A stretch of DNA of 48,382 nt from Candidatus Jorgensenbacteria bacterium (GTDB taxonomy: Bacteria > Patescibacteriota > Minisyncoccia > UBA6257 > GWB1-50-10): positions 1-48,382 of the forward strand of contig JAUSHK010000005.1 in NCBI GenBank assembly GCA_030648515.1. The letters run 5' to 3'. Positions 6,681-31,641 of the stretch are shown one piece after another. The position numbers and the translations under genes are program-made. The notes below the pieces were generated by a model, which searched no databases, was not told where the DNA came from, and saw only the letters and a program-made list of their open reading frames with translations. Each line of letters begins with the position of its first letter. Positions within the stretch are counted from its first letter, which is position 1.

Positions 6681-8033
6681 ATGAATATTATGCAAGACCT
6701 TGAACGTATTTATGATGGTTTCATAAACCACGAGCAACCACTCACTTTTTTTAAGGGACTACACGAGTATTTGGATTATATATTTAGTGTCCCTGAGCTA
6801 AAACGGGTTTTCGATCAGCAAATGGGAGAACGGACAGTTCTTATTAAACAAATCGAGAGTCTCGAAAAGGAAACGAGGCGGGAGCTTGATCAAGCAAAAA
6901 CAAAACTGATTACACTGATTAAAAAAACCAAGGTAGATGAAATGTCTTTTTTGCGATACCTCACCCACTCCATTAATGACAAAACAACACTGCTCCAGGA
7001 ATTAGAGGCATATGAGAATCGTACGATATTGCATGGTACTTTTGTCTCAGATGATATTGAAAGATATCTGTTTGATATTGCAGCAAATCTTCTCAATGCT
7101 GGCCATAAGAAAAAATTGAAAGAATTTATAGTATCACCCGAAGAATACGCGATACACTATCGCGGCGATGGTCCTGGTCAATATTTGCGCTTCGGAAATC
7201 AGGACAGTACTTTAATTTTTTCAAAAACGTTGTCGGAGCGAAGAGAAAAAGAGAGAAATTTTGAGCGTGAAAGGATGCTGGAATCATGGGGATCCTTTGA
7301 GGTATTACTTCAATTTGATATTGCGTATAAATTTGCGATGTCAAAAGACACATCTCTGGCATCAGTTCCTCCCAGTGGTACCGAAAAAACGCCATGGTTT
7401 GGATTGGCAAAAGAAAGAAATAAAATTTTCTCTATGGCACAAGAGCTACAACGTCTTGCTGAAAGCCAGCTGGATTTTCACTCGATGATTACTACTCGCT
7501 TTGAAAAAGTGCAGGTGGGTGAGTTAAAGAATTTGAAGCAAATTACGCTTAGGGACGCAGCTCAAGTCGTCCACAGTCGCCTGTTGCGTGTTACTGAATC
7601 GAAAATTGGGGAGGGGAGAGAACAAAAACGCCTGAAATCAATTGACCTTATTACCGCATCTTTTGGATCCCTCGACACTATATTCTTAGTCCTTGATGGG
7701 CATTTCGAGATGCCTATAAGGTGCGCTATGAAAAATAATAAGGGAGGTATCGCATCTATAAAAAAGTTATACGATGTCGCTTATTTTGTAGATGCTCCAG
7801 ACAAGAAAGTTTTTTATGATAGAAATCTTGCTGATAATATTAATAATGGATTATTCAAAATTGTTCGCGTAAAGGAATATATGGAAACAAATGGGTTTAA
7901 AAAACCAACCCTCGTTAAAAAATCAAATGATAATATTTTGGTCTTAAACAACGAGGTTGTAGTGAAGACTGGGTTGATTCGTAAAAACGTACCAACACAC
8001 CTGCAGTATCAATATACAGACAAAACAAAGTAG
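6681..8033 (+). CDS. Hypothetical protein (450 aa)
   Basis: Long ORF with upstream promoter-like element and downstream terminator. Confidence 0.7.
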   Translation: MNIMQDLERIYDGFINHEQPLTFFKGLHEYLDYIFSVPELKRVFDQQMGERTVLIKQIESLEKETRRELDQAKTKLITLIKKTKVDEMSFLRYLTHSINDKTTLLQELEAYENRTILHGTFVSDDIERYLFDIAANLLNAGHKKKLKEFIVSPEEYAIHYRGDGPGQYLRFGNQDSTLIFSKTLSERREKERNFERERMLESWGSFEVLLQFDIAYKFAMSKDTSLASVPPSGTEKTPWFGLAKERNKIFSMAQELQRLAESQLDFHSMITTRFEKVQVGELKNLKQITLRDAAQVVHSRLLRVTESKIGEGREQKRLKSIDLITASFGSLDTIFLVLDGHFEMPIRCAMKNNKGGIASIKKLYDVAYFVDAPDKKVFYDRNLADNINNGLFKIVRVKEYMETNGFKKPTLVKKSNDNILVLNNEVVVKTGLIRKNVPTHLQYQYTDKTK

Positions 8034-8443: not shown

Positions 8444-8626
8444 ATGAGACAGAGAGCAGAACAAAAGTTACCAAGAATAATTTATAAACCGCCTGGAGAG
8501 ATAACGGATGATATGGAGCGCGGAATAGATAGAGTTTTTGATCTGTTATTTGAGGAGGTTGTCAGGGTCCAAGAATTACAAAAACAAAATTACAACGAAT
8601 ATGAATGTACGAGAATATCTAAATAA
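8444..8626 (+). CDS. Hypothetical protein of accessory element
   Basis: 60-aa ORF overlapping the start of the next gene (8601). Confidence 0.4.
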   Translation: MRQRAEQKLPRIIYKPPGEITDDMERGIDRVFDLLFEEVVRVQELQKQNYNEYECTRISK

Positions 8627-10205
8627 AAATAACATACAGTTTACTGATTCCGGTAGCGACTTGGCTATGGTATGCCCATTTTGCGAGAAAACGCTTGTTA
8701 CGGGAGCGGGGTATGCCACCTTCAATATTAATCAAGTTACAGGGCAGGGTACCTGCTATGATTGTGGAAAAACTGCTGAATTTTCGGAGATTATAAAAAA
8801 ATTTGGTTTTCAAGACGAGATTGGAGAAAGCGAGGATGGAGTTGTTGAGCGTGCTACAAGAAGCAAGACTAACAAGCTGTCAAGAAATGAGCCGGTTGAA
8901 ACCATAAGTTTTGATAACATAGAGCGTATACGGAAGGTTGAGAAGCCCGATAAAGAAATTGGTTTTGACGAATGGTTGAAAGTCATTAATTCTAATTTTC
9001 CAGATTTGTTATTTCCTGCCGAGGTTGGACTTTCTATTATTTCTCAACTTTTAATCAAGGACATTACTAATCCATTCGCACTTGTTTTAGTTGATGTGCC
9101 TTCTGCCGGTAAAACAATCACTATAAACTTTTTCGCGGAGGTTGAGGGAATAACCTATGCCAGTGATAAATTTACACCCGCATCGTTTGTTTCAAACGCC
9201 ACGAATGTAAAAAAGGCGGATTTGAAGAATATAGACCTCCTCCCACGATTGAGATACAAGATGTTTCTACTTAGAGATCTATCCACTTTATTCTCAAAGC
9301 GAGATGACGATTTGAATGAATGCTTGGGGTTATTAACAAGAGTATTAGATGGCGAGGGATTAAATACGGACAGTGGGGTTCACGGACAGAGGCAGTATGT
9401 CGGCGAGTATCTTTTTATGGTTCTTGCTGGCTCAACTCCAATACCGCCACGAGTTTGGAAGATGATGGGCAGTCTTGGGTCCCGCCTATTCTTCTTAAAT
9501 ATCAGGAGTAAAGATAAAAGCGAAATTGAATTAGCGGACCAACTCACAACACTTGCTTATAAAGAGAAAGAAAAGATTTGTCGTGTAGCTACAAAGGGTT
9601 TTATTCAAACGCTTTGGAATAAGCATAAAGATGGCATCGATTGGGATAAAATAGCTGATAAACAAGAATATAAGCTTATCATTGGCCGCTCCGCGAAGCT
9701 TTTAGCGAGATTACGAGGAGTGATTAATGTCTGGAAGGACAGATCTCAAGACGGCGAAGTTTATGAGCACACAGTTCCTGTAATAGAAAAGCCAGATCGT
9801 ATTAACCAGTTATTCTATAACCTTTGTAGAGGTCACGCCCTTGTATGCGGTAGGGCACAGATTAATCAAGATGATCTTAAGCTGATTGCAGAGTTAGCGA
9901 TTGATAGCGCTCCCACAATACGAGCAAAGCTTTTTAGAAAGTTACTTGATAATGGCGGAGAAATGAAAACGGACCATGTAATGGCGGTATTGAATTGTTC
10001 TCGCCCTACTGCGCATAAAGAAATGGAGGCACTAAAGATTTTAGGCGTATGCACCATAACTCAAGAAAGCTATGGCCAAGTTGGAGAACCAGAGAAAACT
10101 ATATACCTCGCCGATGATCTTGGTTGGTTTCTAAGCGATGAATGCAAAAAGATACGTGGAATGTCGTTACCCACCACACAACACACACTGTCAGATTTGC
10201 TTTAG
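8601..10205 (+). CDS. Primase/helicase-like replication protein: CHC2-like zinc finger + AAA+/P-loop ATPase + winged helix
   Basis: Start at ATG 8601 (MNVREYLNKNN); CPFC...CYDC zinc ligands; DVPSAGKT P-loop; MFLLRDLSTLF Walker-B region; FMVLAGSTPIPPRVW sensor region; C-terminal wHTH (MAVLNCSRPTAHKEMEALKILGV). Confidence 0.65.
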   Translation: MNVREYLNKNNIQFTDSGSDLAMVCPFCEKTLVTGAGYATFNINQVTGQGTCYDCGKTAEFSEIIKKFGFQDEIGESEDGVVERATRSKTNKLSRNEPVETISFDNIERIRKVEKPDKEIGFDEWLKVINSNFPDLLFPAEVGLSIISQLLIKDITNPFALVLVDVPSAGKTITINFFAEVEGITYASDKFTPASFVSNATNVKKADLKNIDLLPRLRYKMFLLRDLSTLFSKRDDDLNECLGLLTRVLDGEGLNTDSGVHGQRQYVGEYLFMVLAGSTPIPPRVWKMMGSLGSRLFFLNIRSKDKSEIELADQLTTLAYKEKEKICRVATKGFIQTLWNKHKDGIDWDKIADKQEYKLIIGRSAKLLARLRGVINVWKDRSQDGEVYEHTVPVIEKPDRINQLFYNLCRGHALVCGRAQINQDDLKLIAELAIDSAPTIRAKLFRKLLDNGGEMKTDHVMAVLNCSRPTAHKEMEALKILGVCTITQESYGQVGEPEKTIYLADDLGWFLSDECKKIRGMSLPTTQHTLSDLL

Positions 10206-11443: not shown

Positions 11444-13096
11444 ATGAGAACGAGCGAGGACACTAAAAAGGCGATTAGTTTAATAGCGGTGTATGCGAGG
11501 GTATCAACCGCACGGCAAGAGGAGGAGGGAACTATAGAAACCCAGCTTTCCGCCGTTCGGGAGTTTGCAAAGAAAAACGAGTATACAATCGTAAAAGAAT
11601 ACATTGACGATGGATGGTCCGGCGATATGTTGGCTCGGCCGCAATTGGATCAGCTTCGTCAGGACGCAAAGAGCAAGGTATGGGAGGCGGTGCTGGCGTA
11701 TGATCCGGACCGTGTCGCGCGCCGGTATTCTTATCAGGAATTAGTGATGGATGAGTTGCGGGAGGGAGGGATTGAGGTACTTTTTGTAACAACGCCTTCG
11801 CCAAAGAACGGCGAGGAGAAAATACTACACGGTGTTAAAGGGCTATTTGCTGAATATGAACGCGCGAAGATTTCGGAGCGCTTTCGGCTTGGTAAAATGA
11901 GGAAAGTTCGAGAAGGTAATATTCTTCTCACTGAAGCGCCATACGGATACAGGTACATTCCTAAAAAAGATAAGGTACACGGCTATTTGGAAATTAACGA
12001 GGGAGAGGCGCGGGTTGTGAAAATGATTTTTGCCTGGATAGTAAACGAGGGACTTACTATTCGAGGAGTGGTCCGGAGATTACAAGAGCTCAGCATTAAG
12101 CCGCGAAAGAGTAAGAGGGGTGTTTGGAATACAAGCACACTGGCGCACCTTCTTAGGAATAAAACATATATTGGGCAAGCTACTTATGGAAAATCATACG
12201 CGGTAGTACCAGAAAATCCCATCAATACCGAAAAGTACCGGAAAATGAGAAAGACGAGCAGGCGAATTAGACCGGAGGAGGAATGGACTAATATACCAAC
12301 GTCAGCGATTCTTGAAAAAGATTTATTCGTGCGCGCACAAGCGCAACTCAAAGCTAATTTTGAACTGTCGCAGAGAAACAGGAAAAACGAGTACCTTCTC
12401 GCCGGTAAGGCGTGGTGCGCTTGCGGCAGTAGGAGAACCGGCGAGGGACCGCAACACGGCAAACATCTGTATTATCGTTGCAGTAACAGGATTACTAATT
12501 TTCCTTTGCCTCAAACGTGCGCGGAGAAGGGTATTAATGCCAGGGTTGCTGACGTGCTCGTATGGCAACGGATTGCAAAGCTTATGAGTTCGCCGGAGTT
12601 ATTAACTAAACAGGTTAAGCGTTGGTTTAGTAAGAAACATTCCGAAGCGCAAGATTCTATAGCGGACGTTACTATTATGAAAAAGGAACTGCTCAAAATG
12701 AAAGAGCAGGAGGATCGTTATACAAAAGCATATGGGGCGGGTTTGTTTTCGATTGAGAAGCTGAAAGAGTACACGGTCCCATTGAGAGAAAAGGCATCTT
12801 CTTTAGAAAATCAGATAGCGAGAGTGCGGGTTGAGGGAGAACGTGGAAACGGGGCTGAATTGCCTAGTGCAAGTGAAATAGGAGTATTCGCCAAGAAGGC
12901 GGCAGAAGCCCTTCAGAACTTGAATTTTGAGGCGAGAAAGGCGATAGTTAGGAACGTTATAGAAAAAGTCGTGGGGACGCAAAGTGAATTACAAGTATAC
13001 GGTTATATACCTGTATCAAATATAAATTATGTCGGGTTTAAAACTATCCATCGGAATCGTTGGTCTGCCAAACGTGGGGAAGTCAACACTGTTTAA
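11444..13096 (+). CDS. Large serine recombinase (resolvase N-terminus, recombinase domain, zinc ribbon, coiled coil)
   Basis: YARVSTARQEEEGTIETQL catalytic Ser motif; DRVARR; AWCACGSRRTGEGPQHGKHLYYRCSN; C-terminal coiled coil. Confidence 0.95.
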   Translation: MRTSEDTKKAISLIAVYARVSTARQEEEGTIETQLSAVREFAKKNEYTIVKEYIDDGWSGDMLARPQLDQLRQDAKSKVWEAVLAYDPDRVARRYSYQELVMDELREGGIEVLFVTTPSPKNGEEKILHGVKGLFAEYERAKISERFRLGKMRKVREGNILLTEAPYGYRYIPKKDKVHGYLEINEGEARVVKMIFAWIVNEGLTIRGVVRRLQELSIKPRKSKRGVWNTSTLAHLLRNKTYIGQATYGKSYAVVPENPINTEKYRKMRKTSRRIRPEEEWTNIPTSAILEKDLFVRAQAQLKANFELSQRNRKNEYLLAGKAWCACGSRRTGEGPQHGKHLYYRCSNRITNFPLPQTCAEKGINARVADVLVWQRIAKLMSSPELLTKQVKRWFSKKHSEAQDSIADVTIMKKELLKMKEQEDRYTKAYGAGLFSIEKLKEYTVPLREKASSLENQIARVRVEGERGNGAELPSASEIGVFAKKAAEALQNLNFEARKAIVRNVIEKVVGTQSELQVYGYIPVSNINYVGFKTIHRNRWSAKRGEVNTV

Positions 13097-17158: not shown

Positions 17159-18205
17159 ATGGCAATTTTTGAGGCGGTTCGAATCCTTTTGTTATTTGCG
17201 CTCGCGTTTATCGTGGCGCTTATTATCACGCCATTTGTTGTGTATTTTCTTGAGAAGCTTGGTGCGCGCAAGAAAAATATCCGCGATGAAAAAAGCGCGC
17301 CTGTTTTTTATAGCTTGCACAAAAACAAATCGAGCACGCCAACGATGGGCGGCGTTATTATCTGGGCGACGGTGCTTATCATGGCGATTGTTTTTTGGAT
17401 ATTAGACGGTACAATAGACGGTTTTGGTTCGTATTTTAATTTTGTGAGCCGCGCGGAAACGTATCTGCCGCTCGCGGCGCTTCTTTTGACGGCGCTTGTG
17501 GGGCTTGTCGACGACCTGCTCGGTATTTTGCGCAGAGGACCGAACGGAGGAGGACTATCTGTTCCTAAGAAACTTATCCTCTACACGCTCGTCGCGGCCG
17601 TTGGCGCGTGGTGGTTTTACTTCAAACTTGGTTTTAGCACGCTCTATGTGCCGTTCATTGGAGACGTGAACATCGGTATCTTGTACATTCTCTTTTTTGT
17701 TTTTGTTTTGGTTGCGACGGCATTTTCAGCAAACGAAACGGACGGACTAGACGGGCTCGCCGCTGGCACGATGCTTTTCGGGTTCGCTGCATTCGGCATC
17801 GTGGCGTTTGTCACACACCGGTATGACCTTGCCGCGATGAATGCGGCGGTTGTAGGCGCCATCCTAGCTTTTCTCTGGTTTAACATTTATCCGGCTCGGT
17901 TTTTTATGGGCGACACCGGCTCAATGTCTTTAGGGATGACCCTCGGCATTATGGCGATGCTTACCAATACCGCGCTCTTTCTCCCGCTCTTCAGCTTCAT
18001 TCTTCTTATGGAATCGGTGACGGTTATCATACAAGTGTTGAGTAAGAAAATCCGCAAGAAAAAGGTTTTTCTTTCAACACCAATTCATCACCATTTTGAA
18101 GCACTCGGGTGGCCCGAGACGCGCGTAACAATGCGGTTTTGGATAATTGAGGGAATCGCAACGAGTTTGGGATTAATTCTTTTCTTTATCGCGAGGTTTA
18201 TATAA
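17159..18205 (+). CDS. mraY: Phospho-N-acetylmuramoyl-pentapeptide-transferase
   Basis: TPTMGGVIIW, NETDGLDGLAAG, FMGDTGSMSLG, PIHHHFEALGWPETRVTMRFWI. Confidence 0.95.
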   Translation: MAIFEAVRILLLFALAFIVALIITPFVVYFLEKLGARKKNIRDEKSAPVFYSLHKNKSSTPTMGGVIIWATVLIMAIVFWILDGTIDGFGSYFNFVSRAETYLPLAALLLTALVGLVDDLLGILRRGPNGGGLSVPKKLILYTLVAAVGAWWFYFKLGFSTLYVPFIGDVNIGILYILFFVFVLVATAFSANETDGLDGLAAGTMLFGFAAFGIVAFVTHRYDLAAMNAAVVGAILAFLWFNIYPARFFMGDTGSMSLGMTLGIMAMLTNTALFLPLFSFILLMESVTVIIQVLSKKIRKKKVFLSTPIHHHFEALGWPETRVTMRFWIIEGIATSLGLILFFIARFI

Positions 18206-18311: not shown

Positions 18312-19775
18312 ATGCTAACAGCAATCAAAAATGGAGTTGTATATGATGGCACGGGAAACACTCCGGCTAGAAAAAATATTTTACTGCGCGGCGACCGCAT
18401 TATGCGGATTGACGAGGCGCCTGTTCATGAGGCGGATATTATAATTGACGCGCTTGGTTCTATTGTAATGCCTGGCGTTATCAATGTTGGTTCACGCGCT
18501 GATAAAACATCCTCGCTATTTTCCGATCCGCGGCAGGAAGCGGCGATTTTGGAGGGAATCACGACTCAAATTATAGGGAATGACGGCATTTCTCTCGCCC
18601 CATCTTCTCCTCATATGTCAGGCGAGTTTGAACCGCATCATACTGAGCGCTCTCACATTGTTCACGACTGGCGCCGCACAAGGGATATCACTGCATTTTT
18701 AGAAAAGCGGGGGATAGGGACGAATGTCGGAACGCTTGTCGGGTTTTCTAATATACGCGCCATGGTTGCCCGAGGGAAGCAGCGCGATTTCACTGAACAA
18801 GAATTTCGCGCGTGCTTAACTATTCTCCGCGAATCTTTGGAAGATGGAGCGTTGGGACTTTCAGCTGTCTATACGGAAGGTGAAGGGCATCTTGAAGGAA
18901 TTTCACACGAGGAAGTAAAGGAACTTATGAAACTTCTTGCCGAGACGGAGCGAATATGCGTTTTACGCCTGCCGCGGCATGGCATACGCGCGGCGTTTGA
19001 GGATCTCATTGAATACACGCGTTCCGCGAATATAAATGCCGAGCTGAACTTTACCCGGCCGTTTGAGGACTCTCCCGATGCGTATAACGAGCTGTCCGAT
19101 TTTATGGGCCAGCTTTCAGGGAAGGGGTATGTCCATTTTGATTTATTTCCGTTTCCCGAGGCGACTGTTCGCGCCGAGGCGCTTCTTCCCGCGTGGGCAA
19201 AAGGGGTCAATCGCGAAGCGACGCTTGAAATGCTTTCCTCGGAGGGAATGCACGATGAACTCTTAAAATATTTTAAAACGGAAAAAGAAATCGGAATGGT
19301 TATTATTCGCGTTGCCGACCCGTCACTCCGCTTTTTGGAAGGCAAATCGGTACGCGATTTCGCGCGGAATCGCGGAAGAAGCTATGAACGGGGACTCGTC
19401 GAGCTCTTGCGGCTTACAAAATTGCGGGTTCTGTTCCGCTATCCAGAGGGCGATTTAGCGATTCAAAAATTTATCACTCACTCAAACGCAATTATGAGTT
19501 GGGATACAGCAGAGCAAGACGTGAAGGGACCGCTTGATTTTCTAAAGCGCATGGACGAGGAGAAACTTGTCACGCTTGAGCAGGCGGTTGAAAAAATGAC
19601 TTCTCTGCCGGCAAAAAAATACGGGATTTCAAAGCGCGGGGTTCTTGCGCCTGGTAATTATGCTGATATCGTTATCGCGCGGGATTTCAAAGTGACTCAT
19701 GTTTTTGTAAATGGAGAACCTGCAATCGGGGAATATGCGACACGCGCCTTGAATGGAAGTATAATTACATCGTGA
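18312..19775 (+). CDS. Amidohydrolase superfamily protein resembling D-aminoacylase, metal ligands apparently lost
   Basis: N- and C-terminal amidohydrolase signatures (IKNGVVYDGTG...GSIVMPGVIN; PAKKYGISKRGVLAPGNYADIVI) but the HxH position reads GSR. Confidence 0.8.
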   Translation: MLTAIKNGVVYDGTGNTPARKNILLRGDRIMRIDEAPVHEADIIIDALGSIVMPGVINVGSRADKTSSLFSDPRQEAAILEGITTQIIGNDGISLAPSSPHMSGEFEPHHTERSHIVHDWRRTRDITAFLEKRGIGTNVGTLVGFSNIRAMVARGKQRDFTEQEFRACLTILRESLEDGALGLSAVYTEGEGHLEGISHEEVKELMKLLAETERICVLRLPRHGIRAAFEDLIEYTRSANINAELNFTRPFEDSPDAYNELSDFMGQLSGKGYVHFDLFPFPEATVRAEALLPAWAKGVNREATLEMLSSEGMHDELLKYFKTEKEIGMVIIRVADPSLRFLEGKSVRDFARNRGRSYERGLVELLRLTKLRVLFRYPEGDLAIQKFITHSNAIMSWDTAEQDVKGPLDFLKRMDEEKLVTLEQAVEKMTSLPAKKYGISKRGVLAPGNYADIVIARDFKVTHVFVNGEPAIGEYATRALNGSIITS

Positions 19776-19794: not shown

Positions 19795-20901
19795 ATGAAA
19801 ATTCCAACTCGGACATCCGCGCCAGACTACGTTTTTATCGCGCTCCTTTTTGTAATTGTTATATTCGGCTTAGTAATGCTTTCAAGCGCTTCGTCCGATC
19901 TCGGAAAAACGCAGTATAGTAATAGTTACTATTTCATAGAACACCAGTTGTTTCGCGGGCTTTCGATAGGCATTGTCGGTTTTTTTGTCGGTGTGTTTCT
20001 TTATTATCGGCGGCTTGAGCGGTTTTCACTTCCACTTCTTGGATTGAGTATCGTCCTTCTCCTCTTGGTTTTTACAGAGTTTGGGTCTCCAGCAAAAGGC
20101 AGTGAAAGATGGCTCGCGCTTGGACCGATTACCTTCCAGCCGGGCGAAATTTTGAAACTCACGTTTTTTGTCTATCTTGCCGCGTGGATGAGCAAGAAAT
20201 ACGCACGCCATAAGAATTTTTTGGAGGGGATGGTGCCGTTTCTCATCATTACCGGCGTTATCATGGCAATTTTATTTCTTCAGCCGTCAACAACTATCGC
20301 GGTCCTCATTTTTCTTGCGGCAGCCGCGACATATTTTATGGCAGGCGTGCCTGTGCGATATCTTATTTTTTCAGGAATTGCAGTTGCAATCGCGGTCGGG
20401 CTTCTTATTGCGGCAACACCATATCGCCTCGCCCGCGTAAAAACTTTTTTGAATCCCAAATCAGCCGACCAGCTGAACGAGGGTTATCATATAAACCAGG
20501 CGCTCATCGCGATTGGCTCGGGCGGGCTTACTGGTGTTGGGTTTGGGCAGTCAACGACGAAATTAAAATTCTTACCCGAGCCGATTGGGGACTCAATATT
20601 CGCGGTCATAGCGGAGGAACTTGGATTCGTCGGCGCGATGAGTTTTATTATTGTGTTTCTTCTTTTTCTTTGGCGCGGGTTTGAAATCGCAAAGAAAGCT
20701 CCTGATAATTTTGGAAGGCTGCTTGCCACTGGATTTATGTGCGTGCTGGGATTTCAGGCATTTGTAAACATCGCCGCGATTTCGGGAATTTTGCCGCTAA
20801 CCGGCATGCCGTTGCCGTTTGTAAGCTACGGAGGAACGGCGCTCGCGGTATTTTTAACCATGTCAGGGATTGTGGTGAATGTGTCGAGGTACAGGCGCTA
20901 A
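19795..20901 (+). CDS. ftsW: FtsW/RodA/SpoVE-family (SEDS) glycosyltransferase, likely FtsW
   Basis: GSERWLALGPITFQPGEILKL; GMPLPFVSYGGTALAVFLTMSGIVVNVSRYRR; position between mraY and murG. Confidence 0.85.
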   Translation: MKIPTRTSAPDYVFIALLFVIVIFGLVMLSSASSDLGKTQYSNSYYFIEHQLFRGLSIGIVGFFVGVFLYYRRLERFSLPLLGLSIVLLLLVFTEFGSPAKGSERWLALGPITFQPGEILKLTFFVYLAAWMSKKYARHKNFLEGMVPFLIITGVIMAILFLQPSTTIAVLIFLAAAATYFMAGVPVRYLIFSGIAVAIAVGLLIAATPYRLARVKTFLNPKSADQLNEGYHINQALIAIGSGGLTGVGFGQSTTKLKFLPEPIGDSIFAVIAEELGFVGAMSFIIVFLLFLWRGFEIAKKAPDNFGRLLATGFMCVLGFQAFVNIAAISGILPLTGMPLPFVSYGGTALAVFLTMSGIVVNVSRYRR

Positions 20902-20925: not shown

Positions 20926-22044
20926 ATGTTACGGATTGTACTAACAGGCGGAGGGACGGGCGGACATATTTATCCGCTTCTTGCGGTTGCTGACGAGTTA
21001 TTGCGTGTTGGTAGTGACGCCTTGGAACTTTCTATTACCTATATCGGGCCAAGGAGCCCGTACACTGAAATGTTTCGCGAACGTGGAATTGGTGTTCGAT
21101 ATGTTGCCTCAAGCAAGCTGCGGCGCTATGCATCGCTTGAAAATATTATTGACGCCGTAAAGCTTCCATGCTCGCTTATTCAGGCGCTTTGGCATCTTTA
21201 TTGGATTATGCCGGACGCGGTTTTCTCTAAAGGCGGGCCGGGCGCATTTCCAACGGTTGTAGCAGCGAGATTTTATCGGATTCCAGTCCTTATCCATGAG
21301 TCCGATTCCGTGCCCGGGCTTACGAGCCGCGCCTCGGCATATTTCGCTTCCCGCATCGCAATTTCATTTGCTCCAGCCGCGTCGTATTTTCCAAAACAAA
21401 AAATCGCGTTTACTGGCAATCCAGTGCGGCGCGAACTTACAGAAAACATTCCCGACCGGGCATCTGCGAAAGGACGAATCGGGTTTAGACGCGAGGAGCC
21501 TGTTGTTTTAATTCTTGGCGGCTCGCAGGGCGCGAAACGGATTAACACATTTGTTTTTGATAATCTTGAAGCGTTTACTGAAAAATATCAGGTTTTTCAT
21601 CAAGTTGGCGAGCGCAACATTGACGAGGCGGAGTCCGTTATGGAAACAGTGAAGGCGCGGGCAAAGTACCGCATTGCCGGCACACTCAGCACGACCGAGT
21701 TAAAGGACGCGATGGCGGCGGCTGATGTTATCATTTCACGCGCCGGTTCTGGCGCAATCTATGAAATCGCGGCATTTGGAAAACCCTCAATTTTAATTCC
21801 AATTCTTGAGTCGGCAAACAACCATCAGCAACTCAATGCGTTTGAATATGAAAAAAACGGCGCGGCGGTCGTGGTTGAGGAAAATAATCTCGCGCCAAAC
21901 ATATTTTTCCGAGAGCTTGATGGAATTTTAAGCGACTCCGCAAAAATGCAGATAATGGGCAACCAGGCTCGCGTGTTTTCTAAGCCAGACGCTGGAAGCG
22001 TGCTCGCGGGCGAGCTCCTTCGATTAGCCGGTGTAAGAGGGTGA
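20926..22044 (+). CDS. murG: UDP-N-acetylglucosamine--N-acetylmuramyl-(pentapeptide) pyrophosphoryl-undecaprenol N-acetylglucosamine transferase
   Basis: LTGGGTGGHIYPLLAVADEL; VLILGGSQGAKRIN; ISRAGSGAIYEIAAFGKPSILIPI. Confidence 0.95.
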   Translation: MLRIVLTGGGTGGHIYPLLAVADELLRVGSDALELSITYIGPRSPYTEMFRERGIGVRYVASSKLRRYASLENIIDAVKLPCSLIQALWHLYWIMPDAVFSKGGPGAFPTVVAARFYRIPVLIHESDSVPGLTSRASAYFASRIAISFAPAASYFPKQKIAFTGNPVRRELTENIPDRASAKGRIGFRREEPVVLILGGSQGAKRINTFVFDNLEAFTEKYQVFHQVGERNIDEAESVMETVKARAKYRIAGTLSTTELKDAMAAADVIISRAGSGAIYEIAAFGKPSILIPILESANNHQQLNAFEYEKNGAAVVVEENNLAPNIFFRELDGILSDSAKMQIMGNQARVFSKPDAGSVLAGELLRLAGVRG

Positions 22045-28638: not shown

Positions 28639-31600
28639 TTACTTTTCTATCAACTTTCGGAGTGCGCAGAACTCGCAGTCCTTGTCCCCGCATGTTTTGT
28701 CCCGAAACGACATTGTTATAATTTCGTTCGCGGTTTGTTTTATGGTTTCCTCCAGCTCTTTCACTTTTGCGTCCAATATTTCAAATTTTTCCTGCCGGTA
28801 ATTGCCTTTTTCGTCCGGCTCAACAAAATCAATAACGCCAAGTTGCATCTTATAGCGTCCCTGCCAAAATCTATTAAGGAGAAGCTTGTAGAAAATCAGC
28901 TGGCGTTTTATATCGCCGCTTGAATTTTTTGTTTCCCCCTCTATTTCCCCTCTGCTTTTCGGTTTTCCAGTTTTGTAATCGACGACAATAACTTCATTAA
29001 GCGGCGCGGTAAATTCCAGCTTGTCTATTTTTCCGGTTAGCGTAACTCCTGGCGCGAGTTTCACGCCGTCTATTGAAAGCTCTGTAAGCACGTCGCGACT
29101 CCATGAGTGCGAATAAGCGTCGTAATATCCTCCAAGAGCTATTCTACCCTTTTCGCGCGTTTCCTTAAGGTCAAGCTTTTCAAGCGGTTGTTTTTCGAGC
29201 GCGTTCTCGAACTTTTTCAAGAATGATTGCTTGCTTGTCTTTGCGCCTTTTTTAACCGAGTTGAACAGTTCTCTAAGCGCTTCATGTACGGCCGTCCCGT
29301 ACATCTGCCACTTTGTTTGCGCCTGCGGAATGCGCAGGAGATTCACATAAAAATACTTCCACGGACAATCGAGGTAATTATTTAGGTGTGTTACCGAAAA
29401 ACCGTGTTTTTCAAAAAGCTCTCTGACTAATTTTCGTTCGGCGTCCGGTGCCCGCGCGGTTTTTGATTCCGCGAACTGCCTTGCGGGATCCACTATAAGC
29501 GCCCGTTCGAATTTTTCTGTCGGCACTATTTCAAGAAGCTCGGTTTTTATTTCTTCCACAAATACGGACGGCAGACGCTCTTTTCCGCTCTCGCTTTCGC
29601 TCGCGTACGAAATAGTAACGCTATTTTTTGCGCGCGTGAGGGCGACATAAAACAACCGTCTCTCGTCGCTCATCTCGTCGTGCGGCGCGTCCGCGTTTCC
29701 AAACAAGCTGAATATTTCAGGGAATAAAGGCAAGATGTTTGATTTTCTTTTATTTCCCCAGTGGCCGTCATGCGCGTTTATGATGTACACGTGCTCAAAT
29801 TCCTGCCCCTTTGATTTATGCGCCGTCATGAGGCGAACGCGGCGTTCGGAAAGCCCGCTTATTTTTCGTTTCGCATATAAATTGTGTTCTTTGAGGGTTG
29901 TGACGTATTCAAAGAGATCTTCAAGGGAAGCGTTCCTTTTTGCTTCGGCGATGCTTTTTATCTCATCAAATACCGCATTCAATTTTTCTGTTGCCGCGAG
30001 CGGGTCCGGAAGTTTTAGTATATGGTCCAAATACCCCGATTCGCGCACAATATTTTCAAATGTTGAGAGCAGTGATTTATTTTTGTCCGTTCTTGTCCAC
30101 GATTCCATTTTTTTATAAAAGCCCGCTATTTCTTGAGGAGACGAGACGCCTATTCCTCGGAGCGTTTCCTCGGATGATGCCACGTCAAGAACATGTTTCC
30201 GCGCTCCACGCGTGCCCGCGGTGCTTATTATTTTATAAATATCAAGCTGGCTGAGCCCGACAAAATCAACGTGCATCGCTCCAATGAACGCCGTTTCGGA
30301 CCCGAATTCGCTAACCGCGCGCAGTATGGCGATGAGTTTTTTAATTTCAGTGTCGTCAAAAATATCCTGGTCGGATTCTATAACATGTTGAATGCCCGCT
30401 TTTTCAAGCGCGAGCGCAATCGGAAACGCGTCTTTGTTGTCTCTATATAGCACCGCAATTTCTTCCGGCGCCGCTCCGGTCGCGATTTTTTTATGTATAT
30501 CTTCAGCTACCCACGCGAGTTCAGCCCCGCCTTTTTGAAATCTGCATAGGCGTATTTTCCCGCCGCTGGAACTTTGCGCATTCAGCTGTTTTCCAGGACT
30601 ATCCATCACTGTCGCAAGCTTGTGTGCGGAATCCAATATTTGCTGCGTTGAGCGGTAGTTTTCAGAGAGCGTTATCATTGCGGCGGACGGGTACAATTTT
30701 TTGAAGTACAGGAAATTTTCGAGCGACGCTCCCTGGAAACGGAATATTGCCTGCTTTTCATCGCCGACGATGAATATGTTCGGGTTCGCGTGAAAACCGG
30801 CGAGCAATTCCAGGATTTTATTTTGCGCGTTATTGGTATCCTGATGTTCGTCAACAAGGAAATATTGAAATCGTTCCTGAAGCATTATCAGCAAGTCCTC
30901 GCTATTTTTGAGCGCCGAGAGCACTTCCATAATCATATCGCTGTAGTCGTAGAGCCGTTTTACGGAAAGTTCTTTCTGGTACGCCGCGTATATTTTGGAA
31001 AGTTCCTTGTTTTTCGAAATTTGTTTCCATAATTCCCTATACTCACCCTTTATCTGTCCCGCATGCGGGCCTTTTTCATGCCGCAGTCCCTCTATTTTCG
31101 GAAACGCTTTTTCTTTTTTACTAACTATGTCGGAAAATGTCTTATAATCCGTGCCCTCCCGCTTCAAACTATTAAGATTTCCGAGAATCGCCCGCACATA
31201 ATAAAATTTATCTCCGAATGGGCGCAGTTCTTTAAGCTGGAGTTTCTCAACTAGTTTCTCAATAACTTTTATCTGCTCAACCTCTGTTATATTTTGAGAG
31301 CCGATTATGTACGGGAACTCCTCGGGATAATTTTTAATGATGTCGTTACAGAAGCCGTGAAACGTGTTGATGTCCACGGCGTATGCCGCGTCGCCCATGA
31401 TTTCCGCGAGCCGTTTTCGCATTGAAATCACGCCTGATTCCGTAAACGTGAGCGCTAAAATGCTCTTTGGATCGGTGTCGGTTTCCCTCAGAATATTGGC
31501 TATCCGGAGGGTCAAAATCTGGGTTTTGCCTGTTCCTGGGCCAGCTATGACCATAACCGGCCCCTCGACCGTGTTTACGGCCTGTTTCTGGGCTTTATTT

Positions 31601-31641
31601 AAGCGTTTATAGAGTTCTTGGTATAAGTCCCTTTTGGGCAT
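28639..31641 (-). CDS. UvrD/PcrA-like superfamily 1 helicase fused to C-terminal PD-(D/E)XK nuclease
   Basis: VMVIAGPGTGKTQIL; LVDEHQDTNNAQ; LSENYRSTQQIL; RRLFYVALTRAK; IVVDYKTGKPKS; CGDKDCEFC. Confidence 0.93.
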   Translation of the reverse strand: MPKRDLYQELYKRLNKAQKQAVNTVEGPVMVIAGPGTGKTQILTLRIANILRETDTDPKSILALTFTESGVISMRKRLAEIMGDAAYAVDINTFHGFCNDIIKNYPEEFPYIIGSQNITEVEQIKVIEKLVEKLQLKELRPFGDKFYYVRAILGNLNSLKREGTDYKTFSDIVSKKEKAFPKIEGLRHEKGPHAGQIKGEYRELWKQISKNKELSKIYAAYQKELSVKRLYDYSDMIMEVLSALKNSEDLLIMLQERFQYFLVDEHQDTNNAQNKILELLAGFHANPNIFIVGDEKQAIFRFQGASLENFLYFKKLYPSAAMITLSENYRSTQQILDSAHKLATVMDSPGKQLNAQSSSGGKIRLCRFQKGGAELAWVAEDIHKKIATGAAPEEIAVLYRDNKDAFPIALALEKAGIQHVIESDQDIFDDTEIKKLIAILRAVSEFGSETAFIGAMHVDFVGLSQLDIYKIISTAGTRGARKHVLDVASSEETLRGIGVSSPQEIAGFYKKMESWTRTDKNKSLLSTFENIVRESGYLDHILKLPDPLAATEKLNAVFDEIKSIAEAKRNASLEDLFEYVTTLKEHNLYAKRKISGLSERRVRLMTAHKSKGQEFEHVYIINAHDGHWGNKRKSNILPLFPEIFSLFGNADAPHDEMSDERRLFYVALTRAKNSVTISYASESESGKERLPSVFVEEIKTELLEIVPTEKFERALIVDPARQFAESKTARAPDAERKLVRELFEKHGFSVTHLNNYLDCPWKYFYVNLLRIPQAQTKWQMYGTAVHEALRELFNSVKKGAKTSKQSFLKKFENALEKQPLEKLDLKETREKGRIALGGYYDAYSHSWSRDVLTELSIDGVKLAPGVTLTGKIDKLEFTAPLNEVIVVDYKTGKPKSRGEIEGETKNSSGDIKRQLIFYKLLLNRFWQGRYKMQLGVIDFVEPDEKGNYRQEKFEILDAKVKELEETIKQTANEIITMSFRDKTCGDKDCEFCALRKLIEK

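Follow-up and report, generated by a model that had tools for sequence, protein, structure and literature searches.

The open reading frame (ORF) at positions 18312-19775 of the window (the whole 48,382-nucleotide stretch of DNA that we analyzed) most plausibly encodes a pseudoenzyme: with a probability of roughly 0.7, we read its product as descended from a subtype V amidohydrolase and maintained throughout the source organism's order for binding or scaffolding within a murein gene cluster. The protein has the family sequence and fold of subtype V, its gene occupies a slot between mraY and ftsW, the active-site ligands of the family have been lost by degrees, the gene is under purifying selection, and its ancestral linkage is to murD and murI; on sequence grounds, the role of this particular protein is probably non-catalytic, as a scaffold or a regulator. 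An earlier note made from the letters alone had proposed such a maintained, non-catalytic role, and this is supported by clade-wide ligand loss, conserved synteny, purifying selection and an intact predicted fold, from which we infer the role itself.

The ORF opens with ATG and runs without internal stops over 487 aa, intact as the earlier note had it. Its product matches Pfam Amidohydro_3 (PF07969) at 41.6 bits, above the cut-off, with PF01979 also above its cut-off; the closest solved structure by sequence is 3gip, an N-acyl-D-glutamate deacylase (E = 7.5e-26). Orthologs of the ORF product, combined into a profile, find 1m7j at 1.4e-83. An AlphaFold2 model derived from the family alignment (pLDDT 88.2, pTM 0.90) shows the fold to be intact, the best nine PDB matches in a Foldseek search being subtype V enzymes with TM 0.77-0.80. 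The ortholog from G035, which is less decayed and retains its zinc residues, was modeled at pLDDT 94.5 and matched subtype V enzymes at a query-normalized TM of 0.83-0.85. Pfam, the closest structure and Foldseek all bear out the D-aminoacylase/amidohydrolase frame recognized earlier. Descent and fold place the protein in the D-aminoacylase family, yet it fails that family's defining active-site features, so annotation as a D-aminoacylase is unsuitable.

The cluster and the active-site positions are listed below, with the D-aminoacylase residue names H67, H69, C96, H220, H250 and D366 anchored on the alignment to 1m7j.

17159-18205, forward strand: mraY, upstream neighbor, synteny conserved (domain search, relatives' loci)
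18312-19775, forward strand: putative pseudo-amidohydrolase of the D-aminoacylase (subtype V) family, 487 aa (sequence, Pfam, predicted fold)
18489-18497, forward strand: codons of G60-S61-R62 at the HxH position (H67/H69 of D-aminoacylase), with D64 retained just after (alignment)
18582-18584, forward strand: D91 at the position of the metal-bridging Cys96 (alignment)
18966-18968, forward strand: R219 at the position of zinc ligand His220 (alignment)
19050-19052, forward strand: F247 at the position of zinc ligand His250 (alignment)
19503-19505, forward strand: D398 in the column of catalytic Asp366, where the alignment is insecure; the HPR expected to follow is absent (alignment)
19795-20901, forward strand: ftsW, 19 bases downstream of ORF 18312-19775, synteny conserved (domain search, relatives' loci)
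20926-22044, forward strand: murG, synteny conserved (domain search, relatives' loci)

Subtype V amidohydrolases are defined by a Cys/His/His site, which binds an essential zinc, together with a catalytic Asp; alanine mutation of either HxH histidine abolishes activity in PpOngB, and the substrate carboxylate is held by Lys254, Tyr285 and Arg379, the last being the Arg of an HPR motif (PMC12017989). In the ORF 18312-19775 protein, G60 and R62 stand where HxH is expected and D91, R219 and F247 where Cys/His/His is expected, while at the substrate-carboxylate site NFTRP carries Arg at the position of the Lys in SHxK, and the protein has no HPR. The protein contains two Cys and 13 His in all, none of them at a ligand position. 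PGVINVGSRAD, CVLRLP and ELNFTRP, which the earlier note had placed at the HxH, HxR and SH regions, are all present as quoted, and its claim that most metal ligands are replaced holds for H67, H69, C96, H220 and H250. The IGNDG motif is likewise there, with D91 at the GNCG position, but weighs less than had been claimed, because family members outside the clade also carry Asp in the Cys96 column (GPDG in L088, GQDG in L089), so that this residue is by itself no sign of a dead enzyme. The Asp366 column is insecure, since D398 (within IMSWD) faces a Gly in the nearest homolog, from G017; judging from the alignment, D398 may have been regained, kept by chance, or placed there by an alignment slip. 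Together, D91 and D398 leave possible room for an unusual metal site. Canonical reference enzymes are themselves not uniform, as two references from plasmid records show (a gap at the Cys column in L087, no Lys in L086).

To place these losses, we compared 59 relatives of the source genome (49 genera), a class sample of 286 genomes and a phylum-wide sample of 287 genomes. Genome sizes of 0.5-1.3 Mb are in keeping with the Parcubacteria to which the earlier note referred. An open homolog free of internal stops is carried by 50 of the 59 relatives (40/49 genera), and homologs occur in 170/286 class genomes vs. 34/287 in the phylum-wide sample; nine relatives do without the gene, which is therefore not essential everywhere. 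A peptide-pattern scan of genome contigs matched only three distant gammaproteobacterial relatives. In a tree of 96 rows, a quick one with some long branches and with support computed without bootstrap, the source's order forms one clade of 54 members (support 96), and the state of the zinc site requires about 12 changes.

Outside the order, the first HxH histidine is mostly Gln, Asn, Leu or Thr already; nearly all members retain the second His, Cys/His/His and HPR, and the Asp366 column holds Asp or Asn. Within the order, HxH is intact in 3/54 members, Asp is found in the Asp366 column in 4/54 (lost in 50/54), HPR in 4/54 (vs. 38/38 outside the order) and the substrate-site Lys in 5/54 (vs. 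35/38), and the Cys/His/His zinc site is complete in 28/54. Of six ligands, class and phylum members mostly retain four or five, while the order has a median of three, with none left in 9/54. Catalytic loss is thus a property of the clade of 54 and not of one strain; as read from these alignments, it is graded and lineage-wide, not peculiar to ORF 18312-19775, with the zinc site outlasting the catalytic Asp and the substrate anchor. The roughly 28 of 54 members that keep Cys/His/His may bind zinc still. The earlier note had reasoned that relatives keeping HxH would point to recent decay. They do not simply keep it, and recent decay of a single gene is ruled out, because the loss spans the clade and 50 of the 59 relatives carry an open homolog, in the same slot where the contig reaches that far, at a pairwise dN/dS of about 0.04-0.22.

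These dN/dS values (NG86, near-relative pairs) are rough, because dS approaches saturation in most pairs and several give a high or undefined dS, and they come from relatives beyond the source's genus, so that selection on ORF 18312-19775 itself is read indirectly. Pairs without the zinc site are also low (0.11 for G027-G033, 0.22 for G015-G028), and the neighbors mraY, ftsW and murG gave 0.02-0.16. Sequence change in the amidohydrolase gene outpaces that in mraY and ftsW and, for the most part, that in murG, yet the gene is constrained: the dN/dS comparison suggested earlier indicates purifying selection acting on an intact reading frame.

The gene lies between cell-wall genes as described, mraY on one side and ftsW, then murG, on the other, and the order scpA-scpB-pbp5-mraY-X-ftsW-murG-gltX-M23 (X being the amidohydrolase gene) recurs in nearly every locus of the source's order that extends far enough. 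The synteny mraY-X-ftsW-murG is also found in many class and phylum loci, with few exceptions where the contig reaches, which answers the question of conserved synteny raised with the original observation. Elsewhere in the window, a short distance upstream of the murein cluster, we observed a large serine recombinase (Resolvase, Recombinase and zinc ribbon; 11444-13096) that may mark a mobile element. The ORFs at 8538-10205 (555 aa) and 6681-8033 (450 aa) have no Pfam match, and the longer has none in NCBIfam either. A Dockerin-domain protein lies at the window start (145-1422), and positions 28639-31641 encode a 1000-aa fusion of an AddA-like UvrD helicase with a PD-(D/E)XK nuclease.

MurI makes D-glutamate and MurD adds it. 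Outside the order, murD lies directly or one to two ORFs downstream of the amidohydrolase gene in 30/38 loci. In many of them mraY precedes the pair and ftsW follows it, murD usually lying between the gene and ftsW, and the pair persists in loci without mraY and ftsW. In 11 genomes, murI lies within 2 kb of the gene (G066, G084, G128, G151, G162, G167, G332, G351, G369, G412 and G452), in the order mraY-murI-X-murD in G066 and G332. This linkage, together with a closest solved relative that deacylates N-acyl-D-glutamate, points to D-glutamate, or a step close to it in the murein pathway, as the most likely target of the ancestral protein. The earlier suggestion of a role in peptidoglycan synthesis is thereby upheld as to murein context, which specifies the D-glutamate (MurI/MurD) step rather than synthesis in general. 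In one class member (G166), an ORF with a C-terminal PEP-synthase-like swiveling domain lies between the amidohydrolase gene and murD (L119:7067-8674).

Within the source's order, murD is out of the slot or absent (absent from about 20/59 genomes), and the amidohydrolase gene is retained in 50 of 59 relatives vs. about 41 for murC, about 39 for murD and 5 for murI, a wider retention that argues against mere erosion. MurC and MurD are patchily missing and MurI is present in 5/59, while MurE/MurF-type ligases remain; the early steps towards the stem peptide seem to have been eroded or replaced. In the source genome, scored as 100% complete, profile searches found neither MurD nor MurI; MurE, MurF and one MurC/Mpl-type ligase are present. 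This sole MurC-type ligase (L075:9574-10989; G000:C3:87621-88979) scores 250 bits as MurC vs. 219 as Mpl, compared with about 375-440 vs. 130-190 in typical relatives, and is the most Mpl-like of the 59; its score hints at ligation of ready-made peptide.

We also considered other associations. Replacement of MurD by the gene as a simple swap in the murD slot is not supported, as the two co-occur in 32 relatives and show no association in their presence (Fisher p = 0.70). Supply of D-Glu in place of MurI finds no support either: across the class sample, presence or absence of the gene is independent of that of MurI (36/134/21/95, p = 0.55). Loss of the zinc site is not tied to loss of MurD (site kept in 12/18 genomes without MurD and 14/30 with it), and MurG, matched in 271/286 genomes, was useless as a discriminating marker.

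Could the protein still be an enzyme? That it is a working D-aminoacylase, with motifs that were simply misread or misaligned, is highly improbable: family, fold and C-terminal half are ordinary and Asp occurs at the Cys position in other members, but the alignments to 1m7j and 3gip are free of gaps through the HxH and GNCG regions and their flanks, the H220 and H250 columns are anchored by near relatives that retain YATHLRD and EISH, HPR is gone, and no Cys or His falls on a ligand position. It is unlikely, though it deserves consideration, that the protein is a neofunctionalized enzyme, with a new TIM-barrel active site, metal-free or differently ligated, serving another step on a D-Glu-containing murein precursor; D64 (48/54 in the order), the following His (39/54) and N138 could form its core. 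The order does have a conserved motif of its own, N-x-x-S-D-H, in place of HxH-x-D, N138 is invariant there, the pocket positions D91 and D398 are acidic in the ORF 18312-19775 protein, and an order without MurI almost everywhere and often without MurD must have some further step. However, the His of that motif is Lys in our protein and in its sister from G017, polar pocket residues vary freely among members, and most of the invariant columns hold structural glycines and prolines that the canonical family has as well.

Less likely than such a rebuilt active site, which is possible, is a gene eroding along with its surrounding pathway, a fading enzyme awaiting deletion. We consider this quite improbable, since the homologs of the 50 relatives have neither frameshifts nor internal stops, dN/dS is low, the gene is more widely kept than murD, murC or murI, and the loss is old and common to 25 families, a time span over which a gene free of selection would not have remained open in 0.5-1 Mb genomes. 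The long branches in the tree and the patchy absence of murI, murD and murC from the same genomes do fit decay, as does evolution faster than that of the neighbors, which relaxed constraint would give and which also counts against the pseudoenzyme reading.

Under the pseudoenzyme reading, which we prefer, a subtype V amidohydrolase of the N-acyl-D-amino-acid/N-acyl-D-glutamate deacylase family would have been built into the phylum's murein cluster beside murI and murD, and its catalytic Asp, HxH, zinc ligands and substrate anchor would have been lost by degrees, completely or nearly so in the ORF 18312-19775 protein, which would no longer be able to hydrolyze N-acyl-D-amino acids. As a scaffold or regulatory subunit, it could keep together murein-precursor enzymes (MraY, FtsW, MurG or a Mur ligase); alternatively, it could bind a precursor that contains D-Glu. 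Since MurD and MurI were not found in the source genome, any scaffold partner there must be another protein.

Like the subtype V enzymes D-aminoacylase (1m7j), N-acyl-D-glutamate deacylase (3gip) and PpOngB (9kb1), the protein belongs to the same sequence family and combines a TIM barrel with an N/C-terminal beta sandwich, a PGF...GN.G frame and a C-terminal MTSLPA...RG...G.YAD block. Unlike them, it lacks HxH, the Cys/His/His zinc site and the substrate-carboxylate Lys/Arg, its catalytic Asp is doubtful, and it is encoded in a murein rather than a catabolic cluster. A parallel is the pseudo-dihydroorotase of Pseudomonas aeruginosa, which is inactive but needed to assemble active aspartate transcarbamoylase (PMC7053772). 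It is a conserved, catalytically dead amidohydrolase coupled to a biosynthetic pathway, as our protein would be; the two differ in subfamily and pathway, and a partner is proven only for the pseudo-dihydroorotase. CRMP/dihydropyrimidinase-like proteins are eukaryotic pseudo-amidohydrolases with the fold intact and the catalytic metal site gone. They appeared as weaker Foldseek matches of our model and have a fold without a metal site in common with it, but they are eukaryotic, have a cytoskeletal role and belong to another subfamily.

The protein would add a variant to the already known pseudo-amidohydrolases, and our literature search found no report that brings together a D-aminoacylase or other amidohydrolase, bacteria of this kind and murein genes. 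Its relatives form a natural series within one orthologous slot, in which the active site is dismantled stepwise from the first His through the Asp and substrate anchor to the zinc ligands. More speculatively, and in our view improbably, the stripped amidohydrolase might be a new component, specific to the phylum, of the D-glutamate branch of peptidoglycan synthesis. An ancestral enzyme between MurI and MurD would then have become non-catalytic or neofunctional in the order and would enable cells to build the second position of the stem peptide, or to accept it, in the absence of MurI and, in many genomes (the source among them), of MurD. Ultra-small, host-dependent bacteria of this kind carry murein genes with missing steps, which raises the question of how their precursors are made or borrowed; a protein kept more faithfully than MurC, MurD and MurI, and fixed between mraY and ftsW, offers a concrete handle on it.
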